Shown: one piece after another, positions 36,640-59,892 of the stretch | Position numbering within the stretch: the first letter of the stretch is position 1 | Layout of the letters: every line of letters begins with the position of its first letter | Assembly (NCBI RefSeq): GCF_029433295.1 | Contig: NZ_JAQTHV010000001.1 | Coordinates: 124,001-188,000, forward strand | DNA length: 64,000 bases | Reading direction: 5' to 3' | DNA from: Bifidobacterium sp. ESL0784 | Lineage (GTDB): Bacteria; Actinomycetota; Actinomycetes; Actinomycetales; Bifidobacteriaceae | The notes under the pieces: model-generated | What the model saw: only the letters and a program-made list of their open reading frames with translations | Told to the model about the DNA's origin: nothing | Databases searched by the model: none | Position numbers and translations under genes: made by a program

Positions 36640-37341
36640 ATGGGCTATATAGATGTCATCCACGAGGTTAAACGATATAATACCGGGGGAAAAACTTGTA
36701 TCGCAAATAACGATGTTACCTTTTCAATTATGCAGGGCGAGCTCGTGATGATTCTTGGAGCCTCCGGTACAGGCAAATCGACATTGCTCAATATCCTCGG
36801 CGGCATGGATAGTTGCGATGAAGGTGATGTGATTGTCGACGGAGAGGATATCGCCAAATACGACGCCAAGGAACTCACCGAGTACCGACGGCTCGACGTT
36901 GGCTTCGTTTTCCAGTTCTATAACCTTGTTCCTAACCTGACCGCGCTTGAAAACGTCGAGATGGCCTCCGAAATCGTCCCATATTCCAATAATTCCATGG
37001 ATGCGCTGGCCAGCGTAGGGCTTATGAATCGCTGCAACAACTTCCCCTCCCAGCTTTCCGGCGGCGAACAACAACGTGTCGCCATCGCGCGTGCCGTGGC
37101 GAAAAGACCGAAAATTCTTCTCTGCGATGAACCGACCGGCGCGCTTGACTACAAAACCGGCAAGCAGGTGTTGCATATTCTTCAGGACATGAGCCGAAAA
37201 CACGGCGCCACGGTCATCATCGTGACTCATAATTCAGCCATTTCCCCTATGGCCGATCGCGTCATACGCATGCATGACGCCAGCATTGCCGAAGTCAAGT
37301 GCAATCCCAATCCGTGCGATATCGACCAGCTGGAGTGGTGA
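36640..37341 (+). CDS. ABC transporter ATP-binding protein (LolD/MacB type)
   Basis: This is a 233-residue ATPase with Walker A GASGTGKS, a Q-loop near VFQFYNL, the signature LSGGEQQR, Walker [12 protein letters not shown] and the H-loop His in IIVTHNS. The SNNSMD insertion and overall form match ATPases that pair with FtsX/MacB-type permeases. The adjacent permease gene starts at or just before its stop codon, so the two form a transporter. Such systems export lipoproteins or peptides, or provide resistance to antimicrobial peptides. Confidence 0.93.
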
Positions 37342-40300: not shown

Positions 40301-40859
40301 TCAGAGCTACGCGCCGAATGCCGACATGATTAGACTAAAGGACCGCAGCTCCTCGAATGCCAAGCGTGAGGCGGCGAGATTCATGGCGCTCGATGGCATC
40401 ACGCGGGTTTCGCAGAATTCGATGCTCATCGAGCAGACCAATATGCTCGTCCTTTCCATGAGTCTTTTGATGGAGGTGCTGATCGCCGTTTCGGTGCTTC
40501 TCAGTGTTGTCATTCTTTACAATCTCAACAATCTCAACCTTGCCGAACGAGTACGCGAATTGAGCACCATCAAAGTACTTGGGTATTACAATCGTGAAAC
40601 CACGATGTACGTTTACCGAGAGACGCTTGGGTTGACCGTGATAGGTGTTCTGTTGGGTATGGGCGCCGGCATTTTGCTGCACGAACGCATCATCCGTCAG
40701 GTCGCTCCCGAGAACATGATGTTCTCCCCCGATCTTACTGGTGGGCAATTCGTGTTCCCGGTTATCCTGATTGCAGTGGTGACTGTCATTCTGGCTTTCT
40801 ATGTATCGGCGAGAATAGCGAAAATCGATATGCTCAAGGCGTTGCAGGCCAGAGAGTAG
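37338..40859 (+). CDS. FtsX/MacB-type ABC permease with a duplicated N-terminal extension
   Basis: This protein of about 1173 residues is the permease partner of the preceding ATPase. I place the start at the GTG at 37338 overlapping the upstream stop; an earlier GTG at 37299 is possible. The first 340 residues are hydrophilic, Pro/Gln/Ser-rich and contain two copies of a 30-residue motif (HTWSEYDPWALGGGEMAGG at about residue 175 and HTWAEYDPWMPSGGEVAGG at about 253). Then come a membrane helix and a large extracytoplasmic domain. The first FtsX domain follows (LIAALLTFTSMTRFVDEERVG). A second extracytoplasmic domain and a C-terminal FtsX domain (NNLNLAERVRELSTIKVLGYY) end the protein. The extension is unusual for this family. 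Confidence 0.88.
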   Translation: MILQFLISHNKTGKHSASRRLAKARNAETRSSANGIASASASGSEIDKTGESVETKLACMKASGTKDSGTQSGEERVSWQDGQKRDSGRKPRTQDGNGSARPHVGLPADPALPHLPAKTKVHGPSDSDFSKAVALPRGPRTSSADSIDAQSASLPSIPPQARRSRQSAQPQQQVHVTHTWSEYDPWALGGGEMAGGSVPLPKRHHFFTFHQIPQAVPASRPREIPQQPGRYSQPQPQQYGQQFWQYGHQPQQVHATHTWAEYDPWMPSGGEVAGGAVPLPRPKQVSRLSGLKNPHASSVPPFPTQSRSENTAGGSPATAALSLSMPRVEAWNDFQSSAKHKISHHMLWRDMRRSMGKSMGRFISIVCMVALGSFALVGLNVTGPDMRSTADQYFEQHQLADISVLSKTGFDDSQVQAISNASGVTKAEYGYFKDVAVSHRDESMRIFSNSGTISTYALRSGSMPKRSNEIAIDAQQAKKHPVGSTVSFLEKPGANGRTMLKGTRYKVTGIVDSVEIIGSVNRGLSDSGSGSLDGYGVVAPQAFASSSYNIARLRYKVLDDMPSHICNDYDKKVQQEKDLLSDSLDNSSGGVSQASSVAPAGQSSSDSPSMLPSYTIDSRRDIPGGAGYVTYDSISRIIDSLGGLFPIFMYLIAALLTFTSMTRFVDEERVGAGTLKAFGYSDWDVMKKFIAYGFVAGLIGGIAGAAAGQLLMPQMVYHAYSLGFDVPPAHLRLGVIATVVALLLAFAATVLPAYIAAHRELKEKTSALLSPKPPKGGASIALEKVGWLWNKFDFKNKITLRNIFRYKIRTFTTIIGVAGALALLVAGVGIQRSVDSINNLQYGTVIQYDLVAAQNDHASETQEAQISQELHGKSVKRFSPIHYESATMEAGPYQNKQDLTVIAAKDAKSFDGYVNLHERASGQHLGLDNYGAVISERLAKLNKVKAGDNIVIQDSLGRNRVVPISGVCEMYVGHFIFMNSKSYEKIFHQSYAPNADMIRLKDRSSSNAKREAARFMALDGITRVSQNSMLIEQTNMLVLSMSLLMEVLIAVSVLLSVVILYNLNNLNLAERVRELSTIKVLGYYNRETTMYVYRETLGLTVIGVLLGMGAGILLHERIIRQVAPENMMFSPDLTGGQFVFPVILIAVVTVILAFYVSARIAKIDMLKALQARE

Positions 40860-40870
40860 CGGCTTTGCTT

Positions 40871-41221
40871 TCAATCGTCGTGGACTGGATTGACCGGAGC
40901 CGATGCTCCTTCCATGTTCCGGCGCACGATTTCCTGCGCCAGGGATTCGATGCTGCACAACCTTAACGTGTTGCCGCCTCGCACCCCGGAAGCTTCGTCG
41001 GTGCTGATGACGCCGGTATCCACCAAGGCGTTGATTGGATTGATTCCATAGCTACGGGCGATGATGATGATTTCGTTAGTGGTCAGATCTTCGGACTGGA
41101 AGCGTTTGTAGAGCGTTGCATACGGAATGTTCGTACGTTTTGCGATACTGTTAATAGAGTCGTTGTGGGTAATTCTGCGTAGCCAGGTGATCCTGCTGCG
41201 GTGTGTGTTTGTTTTGTCCAT
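40871..41221 (-). CDS. Small HTH protein, paralogue 3 of 3
   Basis: This is a 116-residue putative DNA-binding protein closest to paralogue 1. The shared blocks are ITWLRRITHNDSINSIAK, PYATLYKRFQS, NEIIIIARSYGINPINAL and GVRGGNTLRLCSIESLAQEI. The sequence just upstream of the start (CTTACATTTT then AATTATC, then AAAATAA) matches paralogue 1 almost base for base, suggesting duplication of gene plus control region. It is convergent with the ABC permease, 11 bases apart. Its targets are unknown. Confidence 0.8.
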   Translation of the reverse strand: MDKTNTHRSRITWLRRITHNDSINSIAKRTNIPYATLYKRFQSEDLTTNEIIIIARSYGINPINALVDTGVISTDEASGVRGGNTLRLCSIESLAQEIVRRNMEGASAPVNPVHDD

Positions 41222-41845
41222 GTTCTTATTTTCGGATAATTACTTAAAAAATGTAAGACCTTCAAATTGATAATTACGTTTGACGTTTATACGTATTGCA
41301 TTAAATCTGATTTCTGCCCTTTTATTGAAGTTTAGGTCGTGCTGTGCTGATACTTAGAAAAAGCTTGAGAGCAGTGAGATTTACTGCCACTTACATTGCA
41401 AAAAATATTTCGTGAATGCGACGTTGATATAGCTATGTAAAATTGCAAAATTTGTGATTCAAGAATTGGCGTTAAAAGTTTACGTCAATAGTTTTTTAAA
41501 AGTCTGTGAAAAAAATTATTAAAATAGAATGACGTTGACCGTTTACGTCGACGGCATAAAACGGGCGTGTCTTTCCTTTTTGTGTGCCCTGTTCCCGTGA
41601 CGAACCAGGCGCCGGCCGCCTTTCTTACGGCAGGCTTATACGATATGTGGCGTGTTGTCACGATATTATGCCACTGACCGTGTATAGTGGGGTTTGAGCT
41701 CAAGGGGGAGGAACCCTGGAAGGCCCCACTCATAATGGAATGAAAGTGCGGAAGTTCGCTTGCCGAAGTTGGCTTGCGGGTGGATGCAAAACCCCTTCAC
41801 TACGGATCGTTCGGCACGTACCTGCCGATGAAAGGAATATTAATT
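41222..41845. promoter_or_regulatory. Long regulatory region and structured 5' leader of the sugar-ABC ATPase
   Basis: The left part is AT-rich, with GACGT and TTTACGTC words around 41465-41555. A TGTATAGT element (TATAGT at 41683-41688) could be an extended -10 site, though no good -35 site was seen. An inverted repeat GTGGC/GCCAC lies just upstream (about 41647-41674). The following 150 bases contain GTGGGG pairing with CCCCAC. Two tandem 13-base repeats differ at one position (GAAGTTCGCTTGC at 41751-41763, GAAGTTGGCTTGC at 41765-41777). A leader of this length suggests regulation; no known riboswitch is recognised. Confidence 0.45.
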
Positions 41846-42973
41846 ATGGCAAAAGTCGTATTTGACCATGTCACTCGTATCTACCCGGGCAATACGGAGC
41901 CCTCGGTATCCGATCTCTCACTTGACATCAAAGATGGTGAATTCCTCGTGCTCGTCGGCCCTTCCGGCTGCGGCAAATCAACTACCCTGCGTATGCTCGC
42001 AGGCCTTGAGGAAGTCAACAAGGGCAAGATTTTCATTGGCGATAAAGACGTCACCACGATGCAGCCGAAAGACCGTGATATCGCCATGGTCTTCCAGAAC
42101 TACGCACTGTATCCGCACATGACCGTCGCTGACAACATGGGCTTCGCCCTGAAGATCGCCGGCGTTCCGAAGGCTGAGATTCGTCAGCGCGTCGAAGAGG
42201 CCGCCAAGGTCCTCGACCTGACCGAGTTCCTCGACCGCAAGCCGAAGGCCCTCTCCGGTGGTCAGCGTCAGCGTGTCGCCATGGGCCGCGCAATCGTTCG
42301 TAAGCCTAAGGTCTTCCTGATGGATGAGCCGCTTTCCAACTTGGATGCAAAGCTCCGTGTGCAGACCCGTACGCAGATCGCCGCTCTGCAGCGTCAGCTC
42401 GGCGTCACCACCCTTTACGTTACCCACGATCAGACCGAGGCTCTGACGATGGGCGACCGCATCGCCGTCATCAAGCTGGGCATCCTCCAGCAGGTCGGCG
42501 CCCCGACCGATCTGTATGACAAGCCGCAGAACGTCTTCGTCGCAGGCTTCATCGGCTCGCCTTCCATGAACATCAACACCCACCCCGTCGTTGACGGCAA
42601 GGCGAAGATTGGCAGCGACACCGTCGAACTCAACAAGGAAGCAGTCGCCAAGTTGACTCCGGAAGACAAGGGCCGCATCGTCGTCGGCTTCCGTCCCGAG
42701 GATGCTTCGCTCGCCGCTCCCGACGAGGCCAACGCCTTCTCGTTGAAGGTCGAGAACGTCGAGGATCTGGGAAGTGACGGCTACATCTACGGCAACATCG
42801 TCACCGATGGCTCCGCAGCCGAGTCCACCGCCATGATGTCCGACCAGAACAAGCTGACCACGATTCGCGTGAACCCGCGCCAGCTGCCGAAGGTCGGCGA
42901 CACCGTCAAGATCAAGATTGATCCGACCAAGATGCATCTCTTCTCCCCGGCCACTGAGCTGCGCCTGAACTGA
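41846..42973 (+). CDS. ABC transporter ATP-binding protein for sugars (UgpC/MsmK family)
   Basis: This is a 375-residue ATPase. I use the ATG at 41846 with AAAGGA upstream; longer in-frame starts lie in the leader. It carries Walker A GPSGCGKS, the signature LSGGQRQRV, Walker B VFLMDEPLSNLD, the H-loop His in TLYVTHDQTEAL, and a C-terminal TOBE-type regulatory domain (about 240-375). Members of this family energise several sugar importers and are often encoded apart from their permeases, as here. It is monocistronic, with only 146 bases before the DUF4032 gene. Cytoplasmic face of the membrane. Confidence 0.95.
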   Translation: MAKVVFDHVTRIYPGNTEPSVSDLSLDIKDGEFLVLVGPSGCGKSTTLRMLAGLEEVNKGKIFIGDKDVTTMQPKDRDIAMVFQNYALYPHMTVADNMGFALKIAGVPKAEIRQRVEEAAKVLDLTEFLDRKPKALSGGQRQRVAMGRAIVRKPKVFLMDEPLSNLDAKLRVQTRTQIAALQRQLGVTTLYVTHDQTEALTMGDRIAVIKLGILQQVGAPTDLYDKPQNVFVAGFIGSPSMNINTHPVVDGKAKIGSDTVELNKEAVAKLTPEDKGRIVVGFRPEDASLAAPDEANAFSLKVENVEDLGSDGYIYGNIVTDGSAAESTAMMSDQNKLTTIRVNPRQLPKVGDTVKIKIDPTKMHLFSPATELRLN

Positions 42974-48093: not shown

Positions 48094-48256
48094 CTTCAGC
48101 TTTCATTGCCGATAAGTTGATGGTGCGGCTGGCGATATTGGCTGCATGCCAGAATGCTCTCGATTATCTCGCCAGATATTGGTCGATTTGATTTCGTGAA
48201 CCTGCTGCGAATCTGCCAGTGAACATTTTGGGCTTCTGTTGGGCTTGCTGCTTATC

Positions 48257-49060
48257 ATGGTGACTATGACCGACGAAGCAGTGAACAGCGAATATTCCAA
48301 CGGGGCGAGCAAGGGCGAAAATGGCTTGATTGGCCGTCAGTCCGATGCCATTCCTGGACGTTTTGGCGATCCGATGGAGATTCCCCATGTCATTTATTCA
48401 CAAGGTGGTGGCAAGGCGCGTCCGACGAGGCCGATGTTCCTATGCCTGCACGGCTGGGGTTCCAACGAGCAGGATCTGGCACAGATGATGCGTTACGTTG
48501 CTCCCGGCAATGATTACGTTTCGCTGCGCGCGCCGCTGGTGCTACAGGCCGAGGGCCCGGGGGAGTTCGGAAGCGGAACGGGTGCGTATAGCTGGTTCCA
48601 CGACGGCGTGCCTACTGGTGAGGATTTGGACAGGGACATTTTCGCGGCGGCCACTGCTGTCGACAATTGGGTCAGCGAGCATATCGACCCCGAACGTGAA
48701 CTGGTACCTATCGGATTCTCGCAGGGCGCGGCGCTAGCGATTCATCTCTTGCGTGTGCATCCCGAGCGTTACCGCGCGGTTGCGGCGCTTTCCGGCTTTG
48801 TCGCTCCCGGGCAGGTTCCTGGTACGGCTCCGGCCGACGATCGGCTCGGTGATATGGAAAAGCCGGTTTTCTATGGGTACGGCGACCTTGACAACGTCCT
48901 GCCTAAGTACGAGATTTACGGCGCGACGGCTTGGCTTGAGGAGCATACATGGCTGACGGTGAAGAACTATCATCAGCTTGACCATGCCGTCAGCCCCGCC
49001 GAATTCGCCGACCTGACCCAGTGGCTCCTCCTCAACAACATCTCGTCGGGAGTAGTCTGA
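48257..49060 (+). CDS. Carboxylesterase / phospholipase-like alpha/beta hydrolase
   Basis: This protein of about 267 residues belongs to the Abhydrolase_2 group. The start could also be at 48266. The oxyanion-hole segment FLCLHGWGSNEQDL is followed by the nucleophile Ser in PIGFSQGAAL. The acid is the Asp in YGYGDLDNVLPK and the His is in NYHQLDHAVSP. No signal peptide or membrane segment, so it acts in the cytoplasm. The substrate is likely an acyl ester, not defined by sequence. It is the last housekeeping-like gene before the AT-rich RiPP cluster. Confidence 0.88.
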   Translation: MVTMTDEAVNSEYSNGASKGENGLIGRQSDAIPGRFGDPMEIPHVIYSQGGGKARPTRPMFLCLHGWGSNEQDLAQMMRYVAPGNDYVSLRAPLVLQAEGPGEFGSGTGAYSWFHDGVPTGEDLDRDIFAAATAVDNWVSEHIDPERELVPIGFSQGAALAIHLLRVHPERYRAVAALSGFVAPGQVPGTAPADDRLGDMEKPVFYGYGDLDNVLPKYEIYGATAWLEEHTWLTVKNYHQLDHAVSPAEFADLTQWLLLNNISSGVV

Positions 49061-49585
49061 GTCGGTATCCGACGGAGCTTTGCTGGGTAATCTTTTATTC
49101 TGTAAATATATGCAGACGTAATAGGCATTATGCATATTTGTCTTGTTTTAGGCTTTAATGCAGAGACGTATTAAATAAAATTTAGCCTAGTTCTAATGGC
49201 ATATGAGGTAATCTTGGCGGCAAGTATAGGGAAATATGCTTGTAAATATGCTAATGACGTATTAGTGTGGTGATTATGTGAAAGAATGAACTATTTCCCT
49301 TTTATTCTGTCATGCAATTACTTTTAACTTAACAGGTATGGTTTCTTGGGCAAAGGCGCTCTCATTCATTGCATATGCAGTTGTAATTCTTGTTTAAGAA
49401 CGCATGCAACGGAAGTGGAAGCTTATTTTGCTTGGCGTCGGATGCGTGAAATTAGACAACTGTAAATATGCTTTCAAGCAGTGTTGTATGGGAACGAAGC
49501 ATATTTATTGTATTTGATTATTTTTTATTATGTTATGCTTCTAAGACTTTTATAGTCATCTATTGATAAAAGGGGATATTAAAAA
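49061..49585. promoter_or_regulatory. AT-rich control region of the RiPP cluster with repeated TAAATATGCT elements
   Basis: No gene is seen in 525 bases. TAAATATGCT occurs at 49243-49252 and 49463-49472 on the plus strand and at 49498-49507 on the minus strand. Close variants are GAAATATGCT (49231-49240), TGTAAATATATGC (49101-49113) and GCATATTTG (49132-49140). The pair at 49463 and 49498 forms an inverted repeat just upstream of a weak promoter-like TATAGT (49551-49556). GACGTA(A/T)TA words also recur near 49115, 49165 and 49256. These look like operator sites, but no cluster-linked regulator was found. Confidence 0.5.
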
Positions 49586-49900
49586 ATGTCAAACAGCCAA
49601 GTCAATATCAATGAAAAGGCGCTATCTCGTGCAATGGGGCGAGCTTACGCGGACTCGGATTTTCGAGAAGCGTTGGATGTCGATCCGACGGAAGCCCTGA
49701 CGTCAACAGGTGTCTTGGAAGAGGGACAGATAGACAAGGTGACTTTGTCGCCAGAGATAGATGAGTGGGGATACCGGCTTGAACATGGCGGTGATGGTAC
49801 CCATCTTATTCTTGGGGTGCCGGATATCTCCGAGGAACTTGGTGATAACGCGCCTGAAGATAATGTCTATCTTATTTGCTGTTGCTGCTGCCCCTGCTGA
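49586..49900 (+). CDS. RiPP (TOMM/LAP) precursor peptide with nitrile-hydratase-like leader and poly-Cys core
   Basis: This 104-residue precursor has a leader resembling the nitrile-hydratase-alpha-like leader family (NHLP): ALSRAMGRAYADSDFREAL, then DPTEALTSTGV, then GTHLILGVPDISEELGDN. It lacks the usual terminal Gly-Gly. The last seven residues are C-C-C-C-C-P-C (98-104), preceded by VYLI. Five adjacent Cys are an ideal substrate for azoline formation by the YcaO protein encoded 4 kb downstream, with oxidation by the SagB-type enzyme. AAGGGG lies about ten bases before the ATG. It is the first gene of the cluster. The cleavage point cannot be fixed. Confidence 0.88.
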   Translation: MSNSQVNINEKALSRAMGRAYADSDFREALDVDPTEALTSTGVLEEGQIDKVTLSPEIDEWGYRLEHGGDGTHLILGVPDISEELGDNAPEDNVYLICCCCCPC

Positions 49901-49911
49901 TTTGGATTCTT

Positions 49912-50052
49912 ATGGAAGAAAATGAAGAATCTGATGCTCTCGCTTACGAAAAGAAGCGTAAACAGAAAATAATTAGACGCATAGTGCTCATAGGCGGGGG
50001 AGTACTTGTCTTCATTGTTGCTAATTGGTCTATGTTAATGAGTCTTTTATGA
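49912..50052 (+). CDS. 46-residue single-helix membrane peptide in the RiPP cluster
   Basis: This small gene lies between the precursor and the P450. The product starts MEENEESDALAYEKKRKQK, followed by a hydrophobic helix at about residues 20-38 (IIRRIVLIGGGVLVFIVANW) and a short tail. The acidic then basic N-terminus predicts an inside orientation. Its stop overlaps the P450 start in ATGA, which argues for a real, coupled gene. The ribosome site is weak. It might be an immunity peptide, a membrane tether or a small partner for export; none is shown. Confidence 0.6.
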   Translation: MEENEESDALAYEKKRKQKIIRRIVLIGGGVLVFIVANWSMLMSLL

Positions 50053-51221
50053 TTGATTTTACTGTGACAGGTTTACCTGCCTTGGATTCCCCTATTTGGT
50101 ATGAGCAAGATAGAGGTAAGGTCTATCGGCAGCTATTCGAATCAGGCAGACACGATAAACGGGTAGATGATGAGAACTTTTGCTACCTCTATGACTATGA
50201 GTTGTGCAAGCAAGTCCTCATCGATCAACAAAAATTCACCCCAGACGGTGAGCGTGTTTTGCTGAATATGACGGAGGGGAATGGTTCGTTCTCGAGCGGT
50301 CTTCTTTCTTTCCGTGTAGATTCTCAGGCGAGATCGATTCGTCAAGACTTGCGGGTGGCCTTGGACGACAATACGTTGGTGGGCAATTTGTCTGACGGTC
50401 GTCTTGCTCCGATTAAAGCTCTTACTGAGTCGGCGGATATCGTTAGGCAAATCAATGGATTCGATTTGGCTTTGAATCTGAGCCTGGAATTCATGTCGTC
50501 AATACTCGGGATTCCGGACGAGCTTCAAAGCCTGTATACTGCATGGGCCTTAAGTCCGGAGAACAAGAGTGTTGATGTTTTACTGATGCAGAAATTGAAT
50601 TCTTCTATTTCTTTGGGGCATTGCAAAGGGGTTGCTAAAAGTCTAAAAGACCGAGGATGGGAGAATCAGCAGATTTCTGTAGCTATCAAGTTGCTTTCTC
50701 ACGCCTCTCTAAGGACGGTTCAGAGAAGTATCACAAATCTGTTCTACGTCATTACAAGGCATCCTGATTTGTTCTCTAATCTGAAAGAAGAAATGTTCGA
50801 TTCTTTTATTACAGAGACGCTCCGTCTTTATCCGCCAACCGTCGCGCTGGCGAGAACCGCGAAAATTGATTGTGAGTTGCAATCAGATTTGGCAATTCGA
50901 GAGAATACACATGTGGTTGTCATAATCGGTGCGGCGCAACGCGATCCTGCTCGCTATGACGATCCGGACAGATTCGATTTGCACAGGAATGCTAAAGAAT
51001 TATTGGCTTTCGGATGGGGACCACATAGCTGTCTTGGCGAGAGAATCGCAAGATCCGTGTTGGGAGCAGTTCTGAAATATCTGAGACGAAACAACGTCAA
51101 GCTGAGGTTGGCGAGTGACCCCACTCCTATGAGATCCTTTAGCTTCGCTACATGGACGAATCTGCCTCTTATAGCGGATTCATCTAAAAAGGGTATACAA
51201 CATGAACGGATTAAAAATTAG
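50049..51221 (+). CDS. Cytochrome P450 of the RiPP cluster
   Basis: This 390-residue heme enzyme likely tailors the azole peptide by hydroxylation or oxidative coupling. I use the ATG at 50049 overlapping the small gene's stop. The heme-binding motif FGWGPHSCLGERIA places the Cys ligand at about residue 328. The ExxR pair is E256-T-L-R259 (ITETLRLYPPTVALART). The I-helix region reads LLSHASLRTVQRSI, where bacterial P450s usually have (A/G)Gx(D/E)T, so the acid of the oxygen-activation pair seems absent. No redox partner gene is in the cluster. The class is bacterial, soluble. It overlaps the next gene by 20 bases. Confidence 0.92.
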   Translation: MIDFTVTGLPALDSPIWYEQDRGKVYRQLFESGRHDKRVDDENFCYLYDYELCKQVLIDQQKFTPDGERVLLNMTEGNGSFSSGLLSFRVDSQARSIRQDLRVALDDNTLVGNLSDGRLAPIKALTESADIVRQINGFDLALNLSLEFMSSILGIPDELQSLYTAWALSPENKSVDVLLMQKLNSSISLGHCKGVAKSLKDRGWENQQISVAIKLLSHASLRTVQRSITNLFYVITRHPDLFSNLKEEMFDSFITETLRLYPPTVALARTAKIDCELQSDLAIRENTHVVVIIGAAQRDPARYDDPDRFDLHRNAKELLAFGWGPHSCLGERIARSVLGAVLKYLRRNNVKLRLASDPTPMRSFSFATWTNLPLIADSSKKGIQHERIKN

Positions 51222-52191
51222 CCATTTTTCAAGCAGGTTAGGGGGAAAATCCTCTGTAACTATTTTTGATGAAGCTGGTCCGACGCTTGTCAAATCGATA
51301 AATATCTCATTGCCGCCTTATGGGCCATCTGTGGTCCAAGCACAGCGAATCGCAGTGTATGTCGATGATAATGATGTTCCAATCGTTGATGTTCCAATTT
51401 TGGATTTTGCCGGTCTGACTCATGGACGTATCGCAAGCATGGTCACGCATTATGCTGAATGCTCTGGCTCGGCGGTGACTCTGCGATGGCCTATGTCGTC
51501 ACCGCGACGAATGCGAATCGTTATCACAAATGGCGATGCTGAACCGATACCTTTAGCGGTTCTTATCTCATACCAAAAAATTTGGTCTGGCTACTATGTG
51601 TCCGCCGTTTTGGCGCATCGTGAGCCAAAAGAAGGTGGGCTGGTTTCCGTGAGGTTGCCTGAGAATGCTTTAGATTTGCTGGGCCTTGTAGTCGCGGTTC
51701 GTCCCTCTGACCTTGAATGGTGCGGTGAAGGCAAAATCTTTTTGGGGGATGAGGTGTTGGCGGATGGTTTGGATATGCTCGGTGGAACATGCCTTGACAC
51801 GTCACAATGGTTTGGTTCGGATCGCGGTATCTCGGTTTCTGTAAGATTCGATTCAAATGTGCGAGGTCATGAATTTCTGGGCTTATATAGGTGGTTTCCG
51901 GATGGTCTTGAAATTAAAGAAAATGCTAATTTCAAGATAGAGCAAGTCGGGCGCCAAGTTTCCGTTAATGACGGAATAATTAAAAGCAAAAGGGTTCCTC
52001 GGGAAGATGAATGGGACATATTGTTGGTGACTACGCATCAGAATGTTCCTGATATCAGTGGCTACGATTTTTCATTATCTGAAATTGACAATCAAATATG
52101 GTATCGAGATTATGAAGAATCTTCCTTCAGAGAACATATATGGTCATCTATTCGCATGCATGTAAAGACGGGAGGCCGTGGCAGTGTCTGA
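51202..52191 (+). CDS. Divergent DUF2961 / GH172-like protein, probably non-catalytic, in the RiPP cluster
   Basis: This 329-residue soluble protein is highly diverged. By eye it follows the DUF2961 (GH172) pattern of two jelly-roll domains. N-terminal FSSRLGGKSS resembles the family's SFDRTGGN. VYVDDNDVPIVDVPILDFAG resembles YWDGEExPSVEVPxGDFFG. RWPMSSPRRMRIVITNGDA resembles WFPMPFxKxAxIxVTN. EWCGEGKIFLGDEV resembles EWYGEGDxxxFIDGE. LYRWFPDGLEIKENANFKI resembles YRFHIxDPIxFEKxIRVTI. The signature GTGTEDYF appears degenerate, as GGTCLDTSQWF, so hydrolase activity is doubtful. It overlaps both neighbours. A peptide-binding or scaffold role in RiPP maturation is speculation. Confidence 0.6.
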   Translation: MNGLKISHFSSRLGGKSSVTIFDEAGPTLVKSINISLPPYGPSVVQAQRIAVYVDDNDVPIVDVPILDFAGLTHGRIASMVTHYAECSGSAVTLRWPMSSPRRMRIVITNGDAEPIPLAVLISYQKIWSGYYVSAVLAHREPKEGGLVSVRLPENALDLLGLVVAVRPSDLEWCGEGKIFLGDEVLADGLDMLGGTCLDTSQWFGSDRGISVSVRFDSNVRGHEFLGLYRWFPDGLEIKENANFKIEQVGRQVSVNDGIIKSKRVPREDEWDILLVTTHQNVPDISGYDFSLSEIDNQIWYRDYEESSFREHIWSSIRMHVKTGGRGSV

Positions 52192-53146
52192 TTATGCTAT
52201 TGATGCCGAGGGTGTGACTGTGAAGTATGGTGGTTTTTCGGCTTTGCAGGATTTGACTTTCTTGGCCGAGACGGGCAGGATTATCGGTTTGCTAGGGCCG
52301 AATGGTGCCGGCAAGTCCACGTTCGTGGATGCGGTCGTCGGCGCCAGGAGGGTCGCAGGCGGCTGTATCCGTACACTTGGGGTCGACCCGGTAGGCGATG
52401 CCGCCAAGTTGCGCCCGGATGTTGGTATTGTTTTGCAGAGCGCGGGTTTCCCGACCGGGATGAAGGTCAAGGACATCCTTTTCAGCTGGAGGCGTTATAT
52501 CCCCGGAATGTCGAAGAAGGATGTGCTGGACGTGGCCGGGCGTGTGAATCTGAAGTATCTGCTAGATAGGCCGTTGAATTCGCTGTCGGGCGGGGAGCGA
52601 CGGAGGGTCGATATCGCCATAGCCTTGTACGGCGACCCGAAACTGATTGTGCTGGATGAGCCGACGACCGGCCTAGACCCCGTCTCGCGCGAGAATGTCT
52701 GGGACATCATCCGTAGTCAGCGCGACCTTGGTGCCACCGTTTTGCTGACCACTCACTATCTCGATGAGGTCGAGGCGCTTTCCGATTCTGTCAGTGTCAT
52801 CAAGCAGGGGCATATCACCGCCTCGGGAACGGTCGAGGAGCTTGCTGCATCCGTTCCCGCTCCTCGGGCCAGTTCGGTGGCGGCGAGCCCGGATGTTTTG
52901 GATGGTCTTGCAAGTCTCTTGCCACAGAATGGCGATGGTGCAAGGCGAAAAGATGATCTTCTGGAATGGCAATCGCATGATCCGGCTCGCGATTTGGAGG
53001 CCATCTATCGCACCTGTGCGGATCGTGGATGGCAGATCACGGATGTGCGCGTGGAGAAGCCCTCTTTGCGTGCAGCCTATTCGGCATTGGTCGGAGCGAC
53101 TGATTCGGAAGACAAGATTCCAGTAACGAAGGACGACAAACGATGA
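52184..53146 (+). CDS. ABC transporter ATP-binding protein (ABC-2 type exporter)
   Basis: This 320-residue ATPase probably powers export of the mature peptide or self-protection. GGGAGG at 52170-52175 fits the GTG at 52184 (eight bases), so I prefer it to the GTG at 52178. It carries Walker A GPNGAGKS, the signature LSGGERRRV, Walker B LIVLDEPTTGLDP, and the H-loop His in LLTTHYLDEVEAL. It contains a C-terminal DrrA-like extension and no C39 peptidase domain, so it cannot itself trim the leader. Its base composition looks richer in GC than the P450 and YcaO genes. It overlaps the permease by four bases. Confidence 0.93.
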   Translation: MSDYAIDAEGVTVKYGGFSALQDLTFLAETGRIIGLLGPNGAGKSTFVDAVVGARRVAGGCIRTLGVDPVGDAAKLRPDVGIVLQSAGFPTGMKVKDILFSWRRYIPGMSKKDVLDVAGRVNLKYLLDRPLNSLSGGERRRVDIAIALYGDPKLIVLDEPTTGLDPVSRENVWDIIRSQRDLGATVLLTTHYLDEVEALSDSVSVIKQGHITASGTVEELAASVPAPRASSVAASPDVLDGLASLLPQNGDGARRKDDLLEWQSHDPARDLEAIYRTCADRGWQITDVRVEKPSLRAAYSALVGATDSEDKIPVTKDDKR

Positions 53147-53967
53147 ACGACACCATTCTTCCTCAGTTTCACCTGCAGACTCTAAGTTTCCTTCGTAACG
53201 GCAAATCGGTGTTTTTCACACTCGCTTTTCCCGTGGCGTTGGCGCTCCTGTTCGGCTTGGCCTACAAAGGTGATAATCTCCCGCTCGGCAGGGGAGCGCA
53301 GGTCTCGGCTGCAAGCTGGTCGGCTCTCGGATTGACTTCCTACGTGGTCCTGATGGGCGGGTTCGTCAAGGTGGCCGGGGATATCGTTTCGCAAAGGGAC
53401 TCGGGCCTGCTCAAGCGCATCAGGCTGAGGGGCCGCTCCGATGCTTCAGTGCTTTTCGGTTATGCGCTCTCCGGTTTCGTCGTGGCCTTGGCATGCCAGG
53501 CCGTCCTGCTTCTGTCCGCCGTGCTGTTCCTTGGTCTCAAGGTTCCTGCCAATATTCCCGGTGTCATTCTCGTCGCGCTTTTGGGCGCGGTGCTTTGCAC
53601 CGTCATCGGCGTCGCGTATTCCGCGTTGATTCCTTCTGCCGATTCCTCGCAGATGATGTTGCTGGTTCCCACGCTGATTCTCATGTTCCTTTCCGGCGTG
53701 TTCACGCCGTCGTGGATCATTCCCTCGTCGTTGCGTACGCTGAGCGCGTTCTTCCCAGTCGGCTATCTGGCCGAGTCCATGCGATCCATGTGGCTCGGTC
53801 AGGATTTCGTCCACGCCACGGTGCAAAACGGCGGTTTGATTTTGGGAAGCCATACGGGACTGTCAATGTTGGTTTCGCCGGGACTGGCGGTATGCGCCGC
53901 GTGGCTGGTTGCATCCGTCGTCATATCCCTCAAATTCTTCAAATGGGACGTAAGGAACGGTCGATAA
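53143..53967 (+). CDS. ABC-2 type permease of the RiPP exporter
   Basis: This 274-residue membrane protein has six helices in the ABC-2 arrangement. The first is near FFTLAFPVALALLFGLAY. The amphipathic segment SQRDSGLLKRIRLRGRSDAS couples to the ATPase. Later helices include VVALACQAVLLLSAVLFLGL and LLVPTLILMFLSGVFTPSW. Its start overlaps the ATPase stop (ATGA) and the YcaO gene begins one base after its stop. It forms an exporter with the upstream ATPase. Cargo is inferred from position. Confidence 0.92.
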   Translation: MNDTILPQFHLQTLSFLRNGKSVFFTLAFPVALALLFGLAYKGDNLPLGRGAQVSAASWSALGLTSYVVLMGGFVKVAGDIVSQRDSGLLKRIRLRGRSDASVLFGYALSGFVVALACQAVLLLSAVLFLGLKVPANIPGVILVALLGAVLCTVIGVAYSALIPSADSSQMMLLVPTLILMFLSGVFTPSWIIPSSLRTLSAFFPVGYLAESMRSMWLGQDFVHATVQNGGLILGSHTGLSMLVSPGLAVCAAWLVASVVISLKFFKWDVRNGR

Positions 53968-53968
53968 G

Positions 53969-56137
53969 ATGCTTTCTGATACACAGAGATATGTACTGAA
54001 CCCTGATTATGAATTTTTGGCAAGGCCGAAAACCAAAGATGTCGTAGCTATAGTAAAGAGTGACCTCTTTCAGCTTAAAGGAACCATGGCTGAGTCAATT
54101 CGCAGACACGCCATAAACGGTGTCCAGATTCCTGCCCTCTCTCAAGCACCGGAAAACGCTCTTGAGATGGCAGAGAAAACGCTTGTCTGTAGAGGCTTCA
54201 TGGTCGAGTCTTCGAGCGAATTGCTTGATTTCGTCGATTGTCAGTGCGACCCGTCGATTCTTGTCAGTGGCAGCTTTCGATTTGTCGATTTCGTTGGCGT
54301 TACGCAGTTGAAAGAATTTGTTAGCATCATCGATAATTGGGCAACAAATGAATCAATTGTCCGGTCTGATAAATTTTCAATAATCATTTCGAGATCCTTA
54401 ACCGATTCGAGGGTAAAACGACAGGTTGAGAAATTGTTGCAATCTGGGTCAAAGGTCTCGTTCTTCATCATTGAGCCTAACCGTTTTATAGTAGGTCCCG
54501 TTTTCCCGTCACATGAAATCACGCCTGAGGATCTTTTCCAATGTGTAAATTATAACGAAAAGTCAGAGCAATTAGACGCTGAGGAATTAATGACTTCTTT
54601 GAAACGTAGAACGATTCATGAAGGCTTACTAGGCGGTTTAAAGAACATCGCTGATTTCTTACAAGATCCAGAAGGCTGTCAGCTGCGGAATAGTTTAGTA
54701 AATACTTATGGCTCCAACCAAAGGCATTATGTTCGGCGCGCCCGCATCCAACCTGGTCCAGTTCCCACGGCAGCAATGCCATTGGTGCTGACAGAAGGAA
54801 CTCATGGCGAGCGCCAATATACTTCGGAACAATTTGTGGAAAAATATTCGTTCCTTGTTTCTGACGTCACGGGTGTTGTCACTTCTTTGAATAGGGTTGA
54901 AACCAAAGAAAAATCAGAACCTTCTTTTGTGTATACGGCTGGCCATAATTGGGCTTTGAGAACCGATAATCCGGAATCGATTCGACGAAGCCTAAGAGGA
55001 CAATCCGGCGGAAAAGGTATGACGGAAATTGACGCAATGGCAGGGGCGATAGCCGAAGCCGTTGAAAGGCATTCCACTATTGCCAGAGGTAATGAGCCGG
55101 TAGTCCGATGTAAATTCAAGGATTTGGCGAATGCGATTCATCCTAACGACATAGCTTTATTTTCACAACGGCAATTCAACAATAGAGAGGAACTGAATTC
55201 ACTACCATCGCTTTACCACCATGTGCCAGAAATGTTCAATCAAGATAGTCTGTGCTCATTCGTACCGATATGGTCTCCCAGCAAGGATACGACTGCTTGG
55301 ATGCTTGAATCGCAGGCGTACTATATGTTTCCCAATGCTGCTGCTCTACCGGGAGCGATCGACCCCAACGGTATGAAATATGCACGAGCGGATTCGAATG
55401 GTTGTGCAGCAGGTACAACGCTGGCAGATGCTGCATTCCAAGGAATCTGCGAATTGATTGAACGCGATGCGGTTTCAATTTGGTGGCATAACCGTATCAA
55501 ACGACCGGAAATTTCAATTTCTTCTCTTAATAATACATATATCACCAATGTCGCCCAATGGATGAAAAAACATGGCCGGGACTTATGGCTGTTGGACCTG
55601 ACTAACGATATCGGTATTCCTGTGGTCGCAGCCGTTAGTGCAACTTCGAAGATTGAGGGCACCAACAAAATTTTGCTAGGTTTCGGTTCACATGTGGATG
55701 TCAGCCGAGCCGCGACGCGTGCCATAAGTGAAGTTATTCAGTTCCAGGCAGCGCTTCCGGCAGAAGTTACGGGAGTGCAGCTCCCCAATCGGTTGACAGG
55801 AAGCGAAGCAATAGATTGGTTCGCGTTTCAAACCCTTGAAGCCAATGACTTTCTGCTTCCTAACGGACATAGCGATCCCTCGCGATATCAAAAGCAACGA
55901 GAATATGACATCAAGCAATTGATATCCTCGATTGAAGCCGTTGGCACCACAGTATTCTTATTGAATGAGACCCGTCCGGATATTGGCTTGCCGGTCGTGC
56001 GATGTGTAGCTCCGGGATTGAGACCGTGGTGGCGGCGGCTGGCTCCTGGGCGTTTATATGATGTGCCGGTAAAACTTGGGTGGCTTAAGTCTGCTCGCGC
56101 AGAAGAGGAGATGAATCCAATTGGCATGTTCTTCTGA
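53969..56137 (+). CDS. Fused azoline cyclodehydratase: leader-binding/E1-like domain plus YcaO
   Basis: This 722-residue enzyme should convert core Cys residues to thiazolines using ATP. Residues 1-290 resemble the C (E1-like, leader-recognition) component, with RPKTKDVVAIVKSDLFQLKG and FIVGPVFPSHEITPEDLF. Residues 330-722 are the YcaO domain. ATP-site segments are SGGKGMTEIDAMAGAIAEAV (near 346), ADSNGCAAGTTLADAA, ELIERDAVSIWW and RAATRAISEVIQFQ. The C-terminus is NPIGMFF, where azoline YcaOs normally end in a PxPxP motif, so it is degenerate here. The N-terminal half lacks an obvious zinc-Cys set. The start has AAGGAACGG upstream. It overlaps the SagB gene by 17 bases. Confidence 0.9.
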   Translation: MLSDTQRYVLNPDYEFLARPKTKDVVAIVKSDLFQLKGTMAESIRRHAINGVQIPALSQAPENALEMAEKTLVCRGFMVESSSELLDFVDCQCDPSILVSGSFRFVDFVGVTQLKEFVSIIDNWATNESIVRSDKFSIIISRSLTDSRVKRQVEKLLQSGSKVSFFIIEPNRFIVGPVFPSHEITPEDLFQCVNYNEKSEQLDAEELMTSLKRRTIHEGLLGGLKNIADFLQDPEGCQLRNSLVNTYGSNQRHYVRRARIQPGPVPTAAMPLVLTEGTHGERQYTSEQFVEKYSFLVSDVTGVVTSLNRVETKEKSEPSFVYTAGHNWALRTDNPESIRRSLRGQSGGKGMTEIDAMAGAIAEAVERHSTIARGNEPVVRCKFKDLANAIHPNDIALFSQRQFNNREELNSLPSLYHHVPEMFNQDSLCSFVPIWSPSKDTTAWMLESQAYYMFPNAAALPGAIDPNGMKYARADSNGCAAGTTLADAAFQGICELIERDAVSIWWHNRIKRPEISISSLNNTYITNVAQWMKKHGRDLWLLDLTNDIGIPVVAAVSATSKIEGTNKILLGFGSHVDVSRAATRAISEVIQFQAALPAEVTGVQLPNRLTGSEAIDWFAFQTLEANDFLLPNGHSDPSRYQKQREYDIKQLISSIEAVGTTVFLLNETRPDIGLPVVRCVAPGLRPWWRRLAPGRLYDVPVKLGWLKSARAEEEMNPIGMFF

Positions 56138-57380
56138 TATTTCAAAGATTTATGAGTGCTATTCGGATGGGAGAAAATTCTCGTCTGACGATGAAACCGC
56201 GGATTCATCTGTCAGCTATGCCCGTAGATATCGTGAAATAATGCATGACGCGACACATGGTTTAACCCGGGGGATCATAGAAATCGATGAAACCGAGAAC
56301 ATAATTGTATCCGGCCCTCATCAACCTATAATGGATATGGTCTTGAGTCGACGGGAGGACAAGACAAAGGCTGAGCTTTCTCCGAACGTCTATATCCGGC
56401 GAGTTGCTGCCAATCAGTACAGTCTGAGGGATTCCTCTTCTCCAGTGATACTTGATATAGACGAGGGTATTCTTCCTTGGGTGTTCTGTATTGATAAAGC
56501 ACCGAATTATTTTACTAATCTTCTATGGAATCTGGGTTTTCTAAAAGACGAGAACGGCCTTCTTCCGGTGTTGCCGTTTGAAGATGAGCTGTGTTTGGAA
56601 TATCCCAGATATGGTTCCCATAAACATGGGTACGGAGGAACTTATCGGTTGGCCAAACAATACCCGCAATTACTGCGCACATCCCTTGACCCGATAGTTC
56701 CTTGCGAGGATACTCTTGAATTGCCGCTGAGCTCAATTAACGAAATCGCTTTAAGTGACGCCATGCATAATAGAAGAAGCTGCAGGGACCATTCCACTCC
56801 TCCTGCCGCGCTTGAAGATGTCATGACTCTTCTTTTTCTGTCTGCGCACGGTGAGTCGTCAGGCAAAGGCGTTCAAAATGAGCCTTTATATCGTTTCCCG
56901 TATCCTTCTGGTGGTTCTTTGGGGGAGCTAAGGTTTTTGGTGATTGCAAATCGGATGACACTTGGTGGTGCGGAAACGGGTGAAACTTGCTTTGAATATC
57001 ACCCATTGAGCAACATTATCTACAAGCATCACGTTAATAAAAAGGCATTGCATTCGTTGATCAGATTATACTCTCACATGCCCGGAATTCCTCCAGAAGA
57101 ACTGCAATGTCTCATCATTGTATTGGCTGATGCCGGAAAAGTAGCTGGAAAATATGAATGTGTGGCTCCGTCTTTAATCTATAAACATGTAGGAGCGTGG
57201 ATGCAAACGGCATATCTTGTCTCCACCCAACTCCCGCTATCCGTTTGTGCGCTCGGCGGAGGGCCTGCTGACGTCTTGCCCAGACTATTCGGTCTTGAAG
57301 ATTCATTCTTGAGGCCTGTCGGAGAAATGGTATGTTCTAGGAGGCGTGATGATGATTTTGACAATAGTTCTTGTAGCTAG
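56121..57380 (+). CDS. SagB-type FMN dehydrogenase (thiazoline to thiazole oxidase)
   Basis: This 419-residue flavin enzyme should oxidise thiazolines to thiazoles. The start is a TTG at 56121, with GAGGAG about ten bases upstream; no in-frame ATG precedes the conserved region. Residues 1-200 form the N-terminal part seen in long SagB proteins. The nitroreductase-like domain begins near AMHNRRSCRDHS. The segment RFPYPSGGSLGELRFLVIAN matches the family's PSGGA motif, and LVSTQLPLSVCALGGGPAD matches the flavin-binding end. It overlaps the YcaO gene by 17 bases, and the next gene starts inside it. Its presence predicts true thiazoles in the product. Confidence 0.9.
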   Translation: MACSSDISKIYECYSDGRKFSSDDETADSSVSYARRYREIMHDATHGLTRGIIEIDETENIIVSGPHQPIMDMVLSRREDKTKAELSPNVYIRRVAANQYSLRDSSSPVILDIDEGILPWVFCIDKAPNYFTNLLWNLGFLKDENGLLPVLPFEDELCLEYPRYGSHKHGYGGTYRLAKQYPQLLRTSLDPIVPCEDTLELPLSSINEIALSDAMHNRRSCRDHSTPPAALEDVMTLLFLSAHGESSGKGVQNEPLYRFPYPSGGSLGELRFLVIANRMTLGGAETGETCFEYHPLSNIIYKHHVNKKALHSLIRLYSHMPGIPPEELQCLIIVLADAGKVAGKYECVAPSLIYKHVGAWMQTAYLVSTQLPLSVCALGGGPADVLPRLFGLEDSFLRPVGEMVCSRRRDDDFDNSSCS

Positions 57381-57669
57381 TTTTCTATTTCTTATACTCG
57401 CTTCTTTCGGTTTGGTAAAGTTGAAAGATGATGAGGATAAAGCGGTTACGAAGGGAAGTTTTGCTCGGGCTTCCAGATGGATGCTGCTTTTCTATACACC
57501 AGGGTTTGTGTTGTATATTCTGAAAACTTTTACTTCTGTATTAAAAGTTCCTGGATTGCTTATACCACTCTTGATTGCTGCGGGTTTCATCCTGGGATTC
57601 TTTGTTTTTTATGTGACCGAGAAGCAGTTGAGGGATAAGCGGAGATCTCAAATGGAAAAATCGGAATGA
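57349..57669 (+). CDS. Small three-helix membrane protein ending the RiPP cluster
   Basis: This 106-residue protein begins at an ATG in front of which lies a perfect AGGAGG (57339-57344); the next ATG at 57352 has even better spacing. It overlaps the SagB gene by about 30 bases. Three hydrophobic helices are at about residues 2-22, 45-64 and 70-92, with a basic tail KQLRDKRRSQMEK. No family is recognised. As the last gene of the cluster it is a candidate immunity or export accessory protein. Confidence 0.75.
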   Translation: MMILTIVLVASFLFLILASFGLVKLKDDEDKAVTKGSFARASRWMLLFYTPGFVLYILKTFTSVLKVPGLLIPLLIAAGFILGFFVFYVTEKQLRDKRRSQMEKSE

Positions 57670-57813
57670 CTGCGCTTGTTGGACTAGGGCCTTAGAATTT
57701 TGCACTAGCCTCAACTTGCCGAACTGTTAAGCTCTGTGGTGAGGTTGAGGGCGCCTTACGCGTGTGAAGGATACAGGTCGGAATGAGTGTGTGGTTGCAG
57801 ACTCGGAAACCTT

Positions 57814-59892
57814 TTACAGTTCCGCTTCCGCATCAACTTGCATCACATACACATTCCTTCTCAAATACTTCGCCTGGCTACGCGAGATTTCACTGGAATC
57901 AAGCATGTCCTGAATCACGCCGAGTTCGATGGAATAGCTCTCATGTTTGACCTCGTCGATTTGCGGAGCGGCCTTTGCGGTGGCCGCGACGTCCTTGCGG
58001 CTGCGCAGTTCGGCCCGTGCGCGCTGGTAGTCGCGCAGCAGTAGTGTGCAGTATTCGGATTTGTAGGTATCGTCGCGCATTTCCTGGTAAAGCCGGTCGA
58101 TGACGTGGTCGATGGCGTCGATTTGCGTGGCTCGCAGATAATAGTAAATTTCATTCTCATTGAGCATTGGTGCGGTGCGACGGAACTTGTTGTTGGCCCG
58201 ACGCGCGAATGTCGTAACCTGCCGCTTCAGTGCATGCACACGTCCGCGGATTTGCGAGACCGCACGATGATGCGTTTTCTTGTCGGCCGTATGCCGCAGC
58301 GTGTTCATGATCTGATCGAGCATGCGCTCACAGGCCTCAATCTGCAGTTGTTTGTTGTGCTCGTTCATGTCGGTGTCGGCTTGAGTGGTCGCCAGCCGGT
58401 CGCGCACATAGTCCTTTTCCCAATGCAGCGCGTCGATTTGCAGCGTCTCGAATTCCTCGATATCGAAACCGCTGATACGTTGGCGCAGGCGGGTGATTCG
58501 GCTGTTGTAGGAATCAATGACAGGCAGAATCACACGGCGGTTATCGTCGGTGACTCGACTTGAAAGTTCCTGCACGGTGCGGGTGAGTTCCTCGATGGTG
58601 ATTTCGATGAGTTTTTCCGATTCATCGGCATCGTCCTTGGCCGGCGCGAGTAGCGGCAGCATGAAGTTCGCCAGCAGCAGCGTCAGGACGATAACCCCGG
58701 AAGCGATGAAAATAAGCTCGTTACGCATCGGGAAGGCATCGCCGGAAGCGACGGTGTAGGGAATAGTGAACATCAGGGCCAGCGTGATGGTGCCCTTCGG
58801 CCCGCCGAACGTCATAACCGCCGAATCGCGTAGCGAGCGCGCTTTCAGGGTGACCCTTTTGCCGGTTTCGCGGTCGCGCGTGGGGGCGGCAATCAGCCAG
58901 ACCCACAGGAAGCGGATGGCAATGGCCACGACGGTGACCAACAGAATAATGCAGACCAGCGCGGTATTGCTGACATTGTGGTCGTCCCAACTGGCGCGCA
59001 TGGCTCCCGGTAGTTGCATACCGAGCAGGATGAACACGGTGCCGTTCAGAACGAACGAAAGCACGGTCCACACGCTGTTCGAAACGATGTTCGTGCGGGC
59101 GACGTTGGGACCGCCGATGCCGTTGCGGTCGAAGTGGACGGTCAAGCCGAAGGCAACCACCGCAAGAATGCCGGAGACGTGGAATTCCTCGGCCCCGAGG
59201 AAGACCAGGAACGGTAGGAACAGTTCCATCAGGATCCGTGTGGTCATCGTTTCCCAGCCGAGTTGCCGTGCCAGGGTAAAGATCCAGTTGGCGAGGAAGC
59301 CTGCGACGATACCGATGATGATGCCGCCGAAGAACGAGAGCAAAAAATCCTTGGTGGCGCTGGCCATCGAGAAGGAGCCGGTTACGGCGGCCAGAATCGA
59401 GAACTGGAAGCCGATAACGCCGGAGGCGTCGTTGAAGAGCGATTCGCCGGTCAGTATGCCGGATTGTTCCTTGGTAAACGAGGCTTCGCTGGAAAGTGAG
59501 GACACCGCCACCGCGTCGGTCGGCCCGAGCGCCGCACCCAGCGCGAATGCCGCCGCCAGAGGAATTACGGGCCACACCGCATGCAGCATGAATCCGACAA
59601 CGGCCATAGTCCCGAGGGCCAGGCCGATGGCCATGGGCAGTGAGAATTTCAACGTCTTGAAGAGCATCCGCTTGTCGATTTCGTGCGCTTCGACATAGAG
59701 CAGCGGCGCGATGAACATGACCATGAACAGTTCCGGATCAAGTTTGACGTGCGGGAAGGCGGGAAGGAAAGCGAGGGCGACGCCGAGTGCGATTTGCACG
59801 AGCGGAGTCGATATTCGCGGAATAAACCGGCTGACGAATGACGAGAGCACGACGGCCCCCAGAATGCAGAGAATCAGCTCGAAAATTGCCAC
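57814..59892 (-). CDS. Na+/H+ antiporter, CPA1 (NhaP-like) family
   Basis: This 692-residue membrane protein exchanges Na+ (or K+) for H+. About 12 helices span residues 1-420. The ion-binding segments ALGPTDAVAVSSL and GESLFNDASGVIGFQF are clear, the latter containing the Asn-Asp pair of electroneutral exchangers. The C-terminal 260 residues are cytoplasmic, charged and partly helical (EELTRTVQELSSRVTDDNRR), likely regulatory. A G/A-rich ribosome site precedes the start at 59892. It is convergent with the RiPP cluster and divergent from tadA. Confidence 0.92.
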   Translation of the reverse strand: MAIFELILCILGAVVLSSFVSRFIPRISTPLVQIALGVALAFLPAFPHVKLDPELFMVMFIAPLLYVEAHEIDKRMLFKTLKFSLPMAIGLALGTMAVVGFMLHAVWPVIPLAAAFALGAALGPTDAVAVSSLSSEASFTKEQSGILTGESLFNDASGVIGFQFSILAAVTGSFSMASATKDFLLSFFGGIIIGIVAGFLANWIFTLARQLGWETMTTRILMELFLPFLVFLGAEEFHVSGILAVVAFGLTVHFDRNGIGGPNVARTNIVSNSVWTVLSFVLNGTVFILLGMQLPGAMRASWDDHNVSNTALVCIILLVTVVAIAIRFLWVWLIAAPTRDRETGKRVTLKARSLRDSAVMTFGGPKGTITLALMFTIPYTVASGDAFPMRNELIFIASGVIVLTLLLANFMLPLLAPAKDDADESEKLIEITIEELTRTVQELSSRVTDDNRRVILPVIDSYNSRITRLRQRISGFDIEEFETLQIDALHWEKDYVRDRLATTQADTDMNEHNKQLQIEACERMLDQIMNTLRHTADKKTHHRAVSQIRGRVHALKRQVTTFARRANNKFRRTAPMLNENEIYYYLRATQIDAIDHVIDRLYQEMRDDTYKSEYCTLLLRDYQRARAELRSRKDVAATAKAAPQIDEVKHESYSIELGVIQDMLDSSEISRSQAKYLRRNVYVMQVDAEAEL

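Follow-up and report, generated by a model that had tools for sequence, protein, structure and literature searches.

Several described systems come close to parts of the gene cluster considered here. In the cytochrome P450 OleT, Arg245 and Pro246 take the place of the acid-alcohol pair, and the arginine binds the carboxylate of the substrate; passages of the same source extend this arrangement to other CYP152 peroxygenases (PMC5377825). In bottromycin biosynthesis, the oxidative decarboxylation of a thiazoline has been assigned to the P450 BtmJ, which is likened to OleT by the authors in a passage of their report (PMC5103208). Among the sugar enzymes of the GH172/DUF2961 type, a section of PMC8605356 gives E270 as the acid/base of alphaFFase1, three residues after W267, and E291, followed by D292, as its nucleophile, and part of another account proposes that the GH172 fold is a cellular relative of the capsid proteins with a double jelly-roll (PMC8812541). 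Here we describe a cluster of nine genes in Bifidobacterium sp. ESL0784 (NCBI RefSeq assembly GCF_029433295.1, contig NZ_JAQTHV010000001.1, positions 124,001 to 188,000 of the forward strand; this whole stretch of 64,000 nucleotides is called the window, and coordinates refer to it unless a contig or locus is named). The cluster combines a P450 and a GH172-like protein with genes of the linear azol(in)e-containing peptide (LAP), or thiazole/oxazole-modified microcin (TOMM), type of ribosomally synthesized and post-translationally modified peptide (RiPP). Judging from the observed gene content, gene order, peptide core and an arginine in the P450, and from modelled protein domains, we see about an even chance that a fused YcaO cyclodehydratase and a SagB-type dehydrogenase build tandem thiazoles from the core CCCCCPC, and that the P450 then decarboxylates the terminal thiazoline.

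The nine open reading frames (ORFs; 49586-57669, forward strand) are all open, co-directional, and overlapping or nearly abutting. Pfam matches above cut-off were found in six of the nine proteins, namely p450 (87.8 bits), YcaO (233.7), Nitroreductase (32.0), DUF2961 (28.7), ABC_tran and ABC2_membrane; the precursor, a 46-residue peptide and a 107-residue protein have none. The first eight genes are also present, in identical order (precursor, membrane peptide, P450, DUF2961-like, ABC pair, YcaO and SagB), in genome G270, a probable Actinomyces (probably sp. oral taxon 448) that belongs to another family of the same order. Identities by tblastn between the host and G270 are 44% for the precursor, 67% over 33 residues for the membrane peptide, 32% for the P450, 48% for the DUF2961-like protein, 50% for the ABC ATPase, 60% for the ABC-2 permease, 40% for YcaO and 37% for SagB, and no counterpart of the last, 107-residue membrane protein was found in G270. 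Because eight genes recur in order in another family and the genes flanking the cluster adjoin each other in relatives of the host, the cluster is more than a chance assembly.

A first-pass annotation of this DNA had listed eight or nine tightly packed co-directional genes and had set the grouping of the YcaO and the co-occurrence of precursor and YcaO in other genomes as tests. Nine genes are present, neither test went against the annotation, and the co-occurrence was found in a second genome, G270. The gene bounds needed correction at one junction, where the P450 start is probably 50049 and the small peptide occupies 49912-50052. The annotation had also called the cluster complete-looking, a label that needs qualifying: neither a leader peptidase nor a regulator, nor a redox partner, is among the Pfam matches of the nine proteins, and ferredoxins outside the cluster were not searched.

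The assignment to the LAP/TOMM class draws on the YcaO protein (53969-56137, PF02624). A protein model (pLDDT 85) and its structural matches suggest a fusion of RRE-like (residues ~6-81), E1-like (~101-260) and YcaO (~278-722) domains. The best sequence matches in the PDB are LynD, TruD and MusD (1.4e-91 to 1.9e-84), followed at 5.2e-11 by the archaeal YcaO MJ1094, which we take to be of the thioamide type. In an alignment (A7) of the window YcaO with 35 relatives chosen from 120 listed, all 36 sequences match the TOMM_cyclo_SagD model; all 36 also match the McrA-thioamidation model, more weakly (205.5 vs 117.9 bits for the window protein). The window YcaO keeps all residues that never vary in the 36 rows, and TfuA is not among the Pfam matches of the nine cluster proteins. 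A thioamide-forming or non-RiPP YcaO was therefore rejected, the weaker matches to the thioamidation model notwithstanding, since the protein groups with azoline formers and TfuA is missing from those matches. An azoline-type YcaO with leader-binding and E1-like partner domains, next to a precursor with a heterocyclisable C-terminal core, supports the thiazole-forming reading of the first-pass annotation. The SagB-type flavin dehydrogenase (56121-57380, PF00881) follows directly. A distant YcaO protein (27% identity over 130 residues) is encoded in another species of the genus (G102, locus L004).

The precursor (49586-49900) is a protein of 104 residues with an NHLP-like leader, a spacer and the C-terminal core ICCCCCPC, recognized from its ORF, weak NHLP-clan matches and homologues. 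The codons for CCCCCPC occupy 49877-49897, with the stop codon directly after. The label NHLP that the precursor had been given is weak: the matches fall below every curated cut-off, the best having an E-value of 2.3e-5 and 24.4 bits vs 40 (NF038399), with 13.1 vs 50.9 for TIGR03793, and the Frankia_peptide model gives 17.1 bits vs 48. A precursor profile search of 5.8 billion proteins, with 212 candidates scored, yielded six precursors, including the window's own and one truncated protein (P0128) that lacks the core. All six full-length precursors, the window and G270 proteins among them, end in CCCCCPC. P0123, P0126 and the G270 precursor are close variants, and the six precursors amount to about four lineages. 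Between the host and G270, seven of seven core residues are kept vs 42 of 97 in the leader and spacer. The six differ in the residue just ahead of the first Cys (I, L, I, V, V, A), and this suggests a core that begins there. In 396 genomes of the phylum, the core motif followed by a stop occurs in the host's own genome only; the other two of three matches have a Trp codon (TGG) where the stop would be, and G270 is not among the matches listed.

The P450 (50049-51221, 390 residues) begins in an ATGA overlap with the gene of the 46-residue, single-span membrane peptide (49912-50052), which has a counterpart in G270. PF00067 is matched above its cut-off, and the heme Cys loop (Cys328 in the host) and ExxR are kept in both cluster P450s. 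The I-helix pair is Arg-Thr in both, with Arg222 at the acid site of the host protein. Of 29 control P450 loci, three without a motif match were dropped; among the remaining 26, the acid position is Glu in 19, Asp in five and Val in two, and the next position is Thr in 24. The cluster P450 is the single PF00067 match across 112 genomes of the genus, including the host's own (2.35 Mb, 98.7% complete), and among 296 genomes of the class, 219 of which have matches, its best non-self relative scores 96.6 bits vs 755.9 for itself. From the arginine at the acid site, the precedents of OleT and BtmJ, and a core that ends in Pro-Cys at the protein C-terminus, we infer that the P450 decarboxylates the C-terminus, whether or not it uses peroxide.

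The use of heme and oxygen is plausible in this host. A heme gene group (contig 5 of the host assembly, 37041-42344, locus L082) encodes HemQ, an MFS transporter and three consecutive ferrochelatase genes; ferrochelatase matches number none in two near relatives and one in G270, and HemQ is present in nine of the 112 genomes. Cytochrome bd was found in all four genomes searched, including the host and G270, and for the bee symbiont B. asteroides part of a published account reports cyd genes and the final three heme steps (PMC3447821). Type I-E CRISPR genes (Cas1e, Cas6, Cas5 and Cas7; L082, 13716-17294) adjoin the heme group.

In the proposed pathway, the RRE domain would bind the precursor leader, YcaO would close up to six Cys, and SagB would aromatise the internal rings. 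The carboxylate at the C-terminus of the Pro-Cys thiazoline would then be held by Arg222 while the heme removes CO2, so that the terminal thiazole is left bare. The protein derived from GH172 may serve as a binding scaffold or may have gained another activity; a host protease would cut close to the variable position that precedes the first Cys, and the ABC-2 pair would export the product. For the fully modified core, standard-mass arithmetic predicts a change of about -164.15 Da (5 x 20.026 + 64.016). The loss of 20 Da per azole expected in the first-pass annotation would need a further loss of 46 Da, should the P450 have the role suggested here. The product mass is predictable before culture work because the core is invariant.

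Several points weigh against this pathway. The P450 is not a member of CYP152 (22.1 bits vs a cut-off of 600 for the profile), and it retains Thr after the arginine where CYP152 enzymes have Pro. Arg222 may bind another carboxylate, or none. A SagB-type dehydrogenase is present, which the bottromycin pathway does without, and a P450 would thus not be needed for ring aromatisation; SagB itself is below its curated cut-off (59.7 bits vs 78.4 for TIGR03605), with PF00881 above its own. Leader removal is left unexplained by the cluster, and any role given to the GH172-like protein is guesswork. In an even sample of 396 genomes from the order, ten match the YcaO-family profile at E 1e-20 or better, eight of them partially (84.5-198.4 bits), and besides G270 no other full-length member accompanies the host's own.

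The first of these points also bears on the strongest alternative, in which the cluster still makes a LAP but, in place of C-terminal decarboxylation, the P450 would hydroxylate the azole peptide, cross-link it or oxidise the residue that precedes the first thiazole. P450s cross-link side chains in other RiPPs, as part of PMC10676384 describes, and the retained Thr of the acid-alcohol pair would suit such chemistry, as would the variability of the residue before the core, which itself lacks an aromatic residue to cross-link. The change from acid to Arg in both P450 lineages points instead to a carboxylate ligand, and the core sits at the extreme C-terminus of the precursor. We regard this alternative as possible, if doubtful.

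The constancy of the core can be read in a second way, namely that the product is not an antibiotic but a metal-binding or signalling molecule made on a scaffold peptide, the invariant core reflecting one fixed ligand function. In the sections of PMC4603692 that treat them, the cores of NHLP and Nif11 TOMM precursors are hypervariable, unlike the invariant core here. No metal uptake or sensing family is among the cluster's Pfam matches above cut-off, and we consider this reading rather unlikely.

Less probable again is that the leader is removed by the P450, the GH172-like protein or YcaO itself. MusD, a YcaO enzyme, cleaves a peptide backbone, and it is among the closest structural-database matches of the window YcaO.

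The DUF2961/GH172-like protein (51202-52191, 329 residues), probably a double jelly-roll, scores just above the PF11175 gathering score (28.7 bits vs 27). TGxEDY is present in all seven ordinary relatives and in none of the three cluster-family members, in which Cys174 sits where ordinary relatives have Trp or Tyr. The WCGEG motif is kept, and its E176 would correspond to E270 of alphaFFase1 by spacing from W267; D191 or D199 could replace the nucleophile, depending on the alignment. In a large protein database the protein has two matches, itself and P0122. Seven of 213 genomes in the family of G270 match its profile, G270 at 597 bits and six others at 18.7-27.3 bits; these six were rejected as cluster-family members and are ordinary GH172-like proteins. 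A PDB search with the same profile gave no significant match (best 8ic8, E 0.14). The first seven Foldseek rows are GH172/DUF2961 chains (TM 0.27-0.31 by query), with many viral capsid chains lower, a result of little weight given a poor model (pLDDT 51.7). On these comparisons the simplest reading is a repurposed scaffold, and another activity is possible. The host also carries an ordinary DUF2961/GH172-like gene with TGxEDY intact (contig 1, 270879-271517, locus L021).

The cluster forms an island in a conserved neighbourhood. It is flanked by an abhydrolase gene (48239-49060) and a Na/H exchanger gene (57814-59892), which are mutual neighbours in all four relatives compared (G089, G086, G012 and G064). 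These four come from 22 genomes, out of 28 others, that have a match to the exchanger. The gap between the two flanking genes is ~55 to 241 bases in these relatives vs ~8,760 in the host, and blastn against G089 and G086 places the island at approximately 49061-57741. Direct repeats of 9-12 bases common to stretches at both island ends were not found. The cluster was likely acquired horizontally. Among the 112 genomes of the genus, a full-length YcaO occurs in the host genome only. B. xylocopae (L002, 9851-11874) showed no more than the 3' end of the cluster, with YcaO residues 564-722, SagB and the final membrane protein and with 81% identity over the last 159 residues of the window YcaO; this is apparently a cluster remnant.

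The last gene of the window cluster (57346-57669) encodes the 107-residue membrane protein, a candidate immunity or accessory factor. The ABC transporter ATPase (52178-53146, PF00005) and the ABC-2 permease (53143-53967, PF01061) have a GC content of 57.5%, near that of most of the window, vs 38-51% in the other seven cluster genes; the exporter genes could have been replaced separately. That the cluster is decaying and non-functional in the host, as the lone 3' part in B. xylocopae and the GC mosaic might suggest, is very improbable in view of nine open frames, an unchanged core and a YcaO with all of its A7-invariant residues.

An A+T-rich region (49061-49585) precedes the precursor and carries short direct and inverted repeats at 49092-49507 (TGTAAATATGCT, AAGCATATTTA), which may be operators. 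The operator-like repeat that was tested is not enriched beyond chance (15 of 100 shuffles reach two matches), and promoter and terminator scans did no better than shuffles. Elsewhere in the window, an msiK cis-regulatory RNA (41785-41843, 64.7 bits) overlaps the listed start of an ORF for an ABC sugar-transport-type ATPase.

Available passages of the literature on YcaO, Bifidobacterium, P450 and RiPP contain no description of the cluster. LAPs are named among the RiPPs of bee gut bacteria in part of PMC10673953, and Actinomyces HMT 448 has been mined, with a salivaricin-like peptide named, in part of PMC8549736; such clusters may be tallied in either source without description. We tentatively suggest a new RiPP family, the P450-capped polythiazoles, in which a fixed CCCCCPC heptapeptide would become a chain of tandem thiazoles, an arginine-swapped new P450 lineage, in a genus whose 111 other searched genomes show no P450, would strip CO2 from its C-terminus, possibly with peroxide, and a retired double-jelly-roll glycosidase would act as scaffold or peptide-processing enzyme. 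A single predicted peptide product, unchanged between them, connects the probable genera Bifidobacterium and Actinomyces. The system would give a small, testable case of P450 action on a peptide C-terminus, and would bring the GH172 sugar-enzyme fold into RiPP biosynthesis.

Among known systems, the LAP/TOMM pathways with fused cyclodehydratases (LynD and TruD; NHLP/Nif11 group, Cox et al., 2015) share with the cluster a fusion of RRE, E1-like and YcaO domains, as modelled here, a SagB-type dehydrogenase, a long NHLP-like leader and ABC genes. The cluster departs from the NHLP/Nif11 TOMM group in its invariant rather than hypervariable core and in having a P450 and a GH172-like protein; the terms "P450", "Bifidobacteri" and "DUF2961" each have no occurrence in the main text of PMC4603692. 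Carnazolamide and dehydrazole, as described in part of PMC10676384, resemble it in an NHLP-like leader with a Cys-rich C-terminus, YcaO and a dehydrogenase, and one related cluster has a CYP; the present cluster differs in that the Pfam matches of its nine proteins include neither a LanM-type dehydratase nor a methyltransferase nor a radical SAM epimerase. With bottromycin it shares a C-terminal Cys thiazoline as the likely substrate of a P450, to which, for BtmJ/BotCYP, part of PMC5103208 assigns oxidative decarboxylation. The two differ in that the YcaO of the cluster is fused to partner domains, a flavin dehydrogenase is encoded and the core lies at the C-terminus behind a long leader, and the nine proteins' Pfam matches include no second YcaO and no methyltransferase. 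An Arg in place of the I-helix acid is common to the cluster P450 and to CYP152 enzymes (OleT, BSbeta), whereas the cluster P450 keeps Thr instead of Pro and lies outside the CYP152 profile. Finally, the GH172-like protein is alike to alphaFFase1 in its profile match and in WxGEG with the acid/base Glu by spacing, while it lacks TGxEDY and belongs to a RiPP-type cluster.
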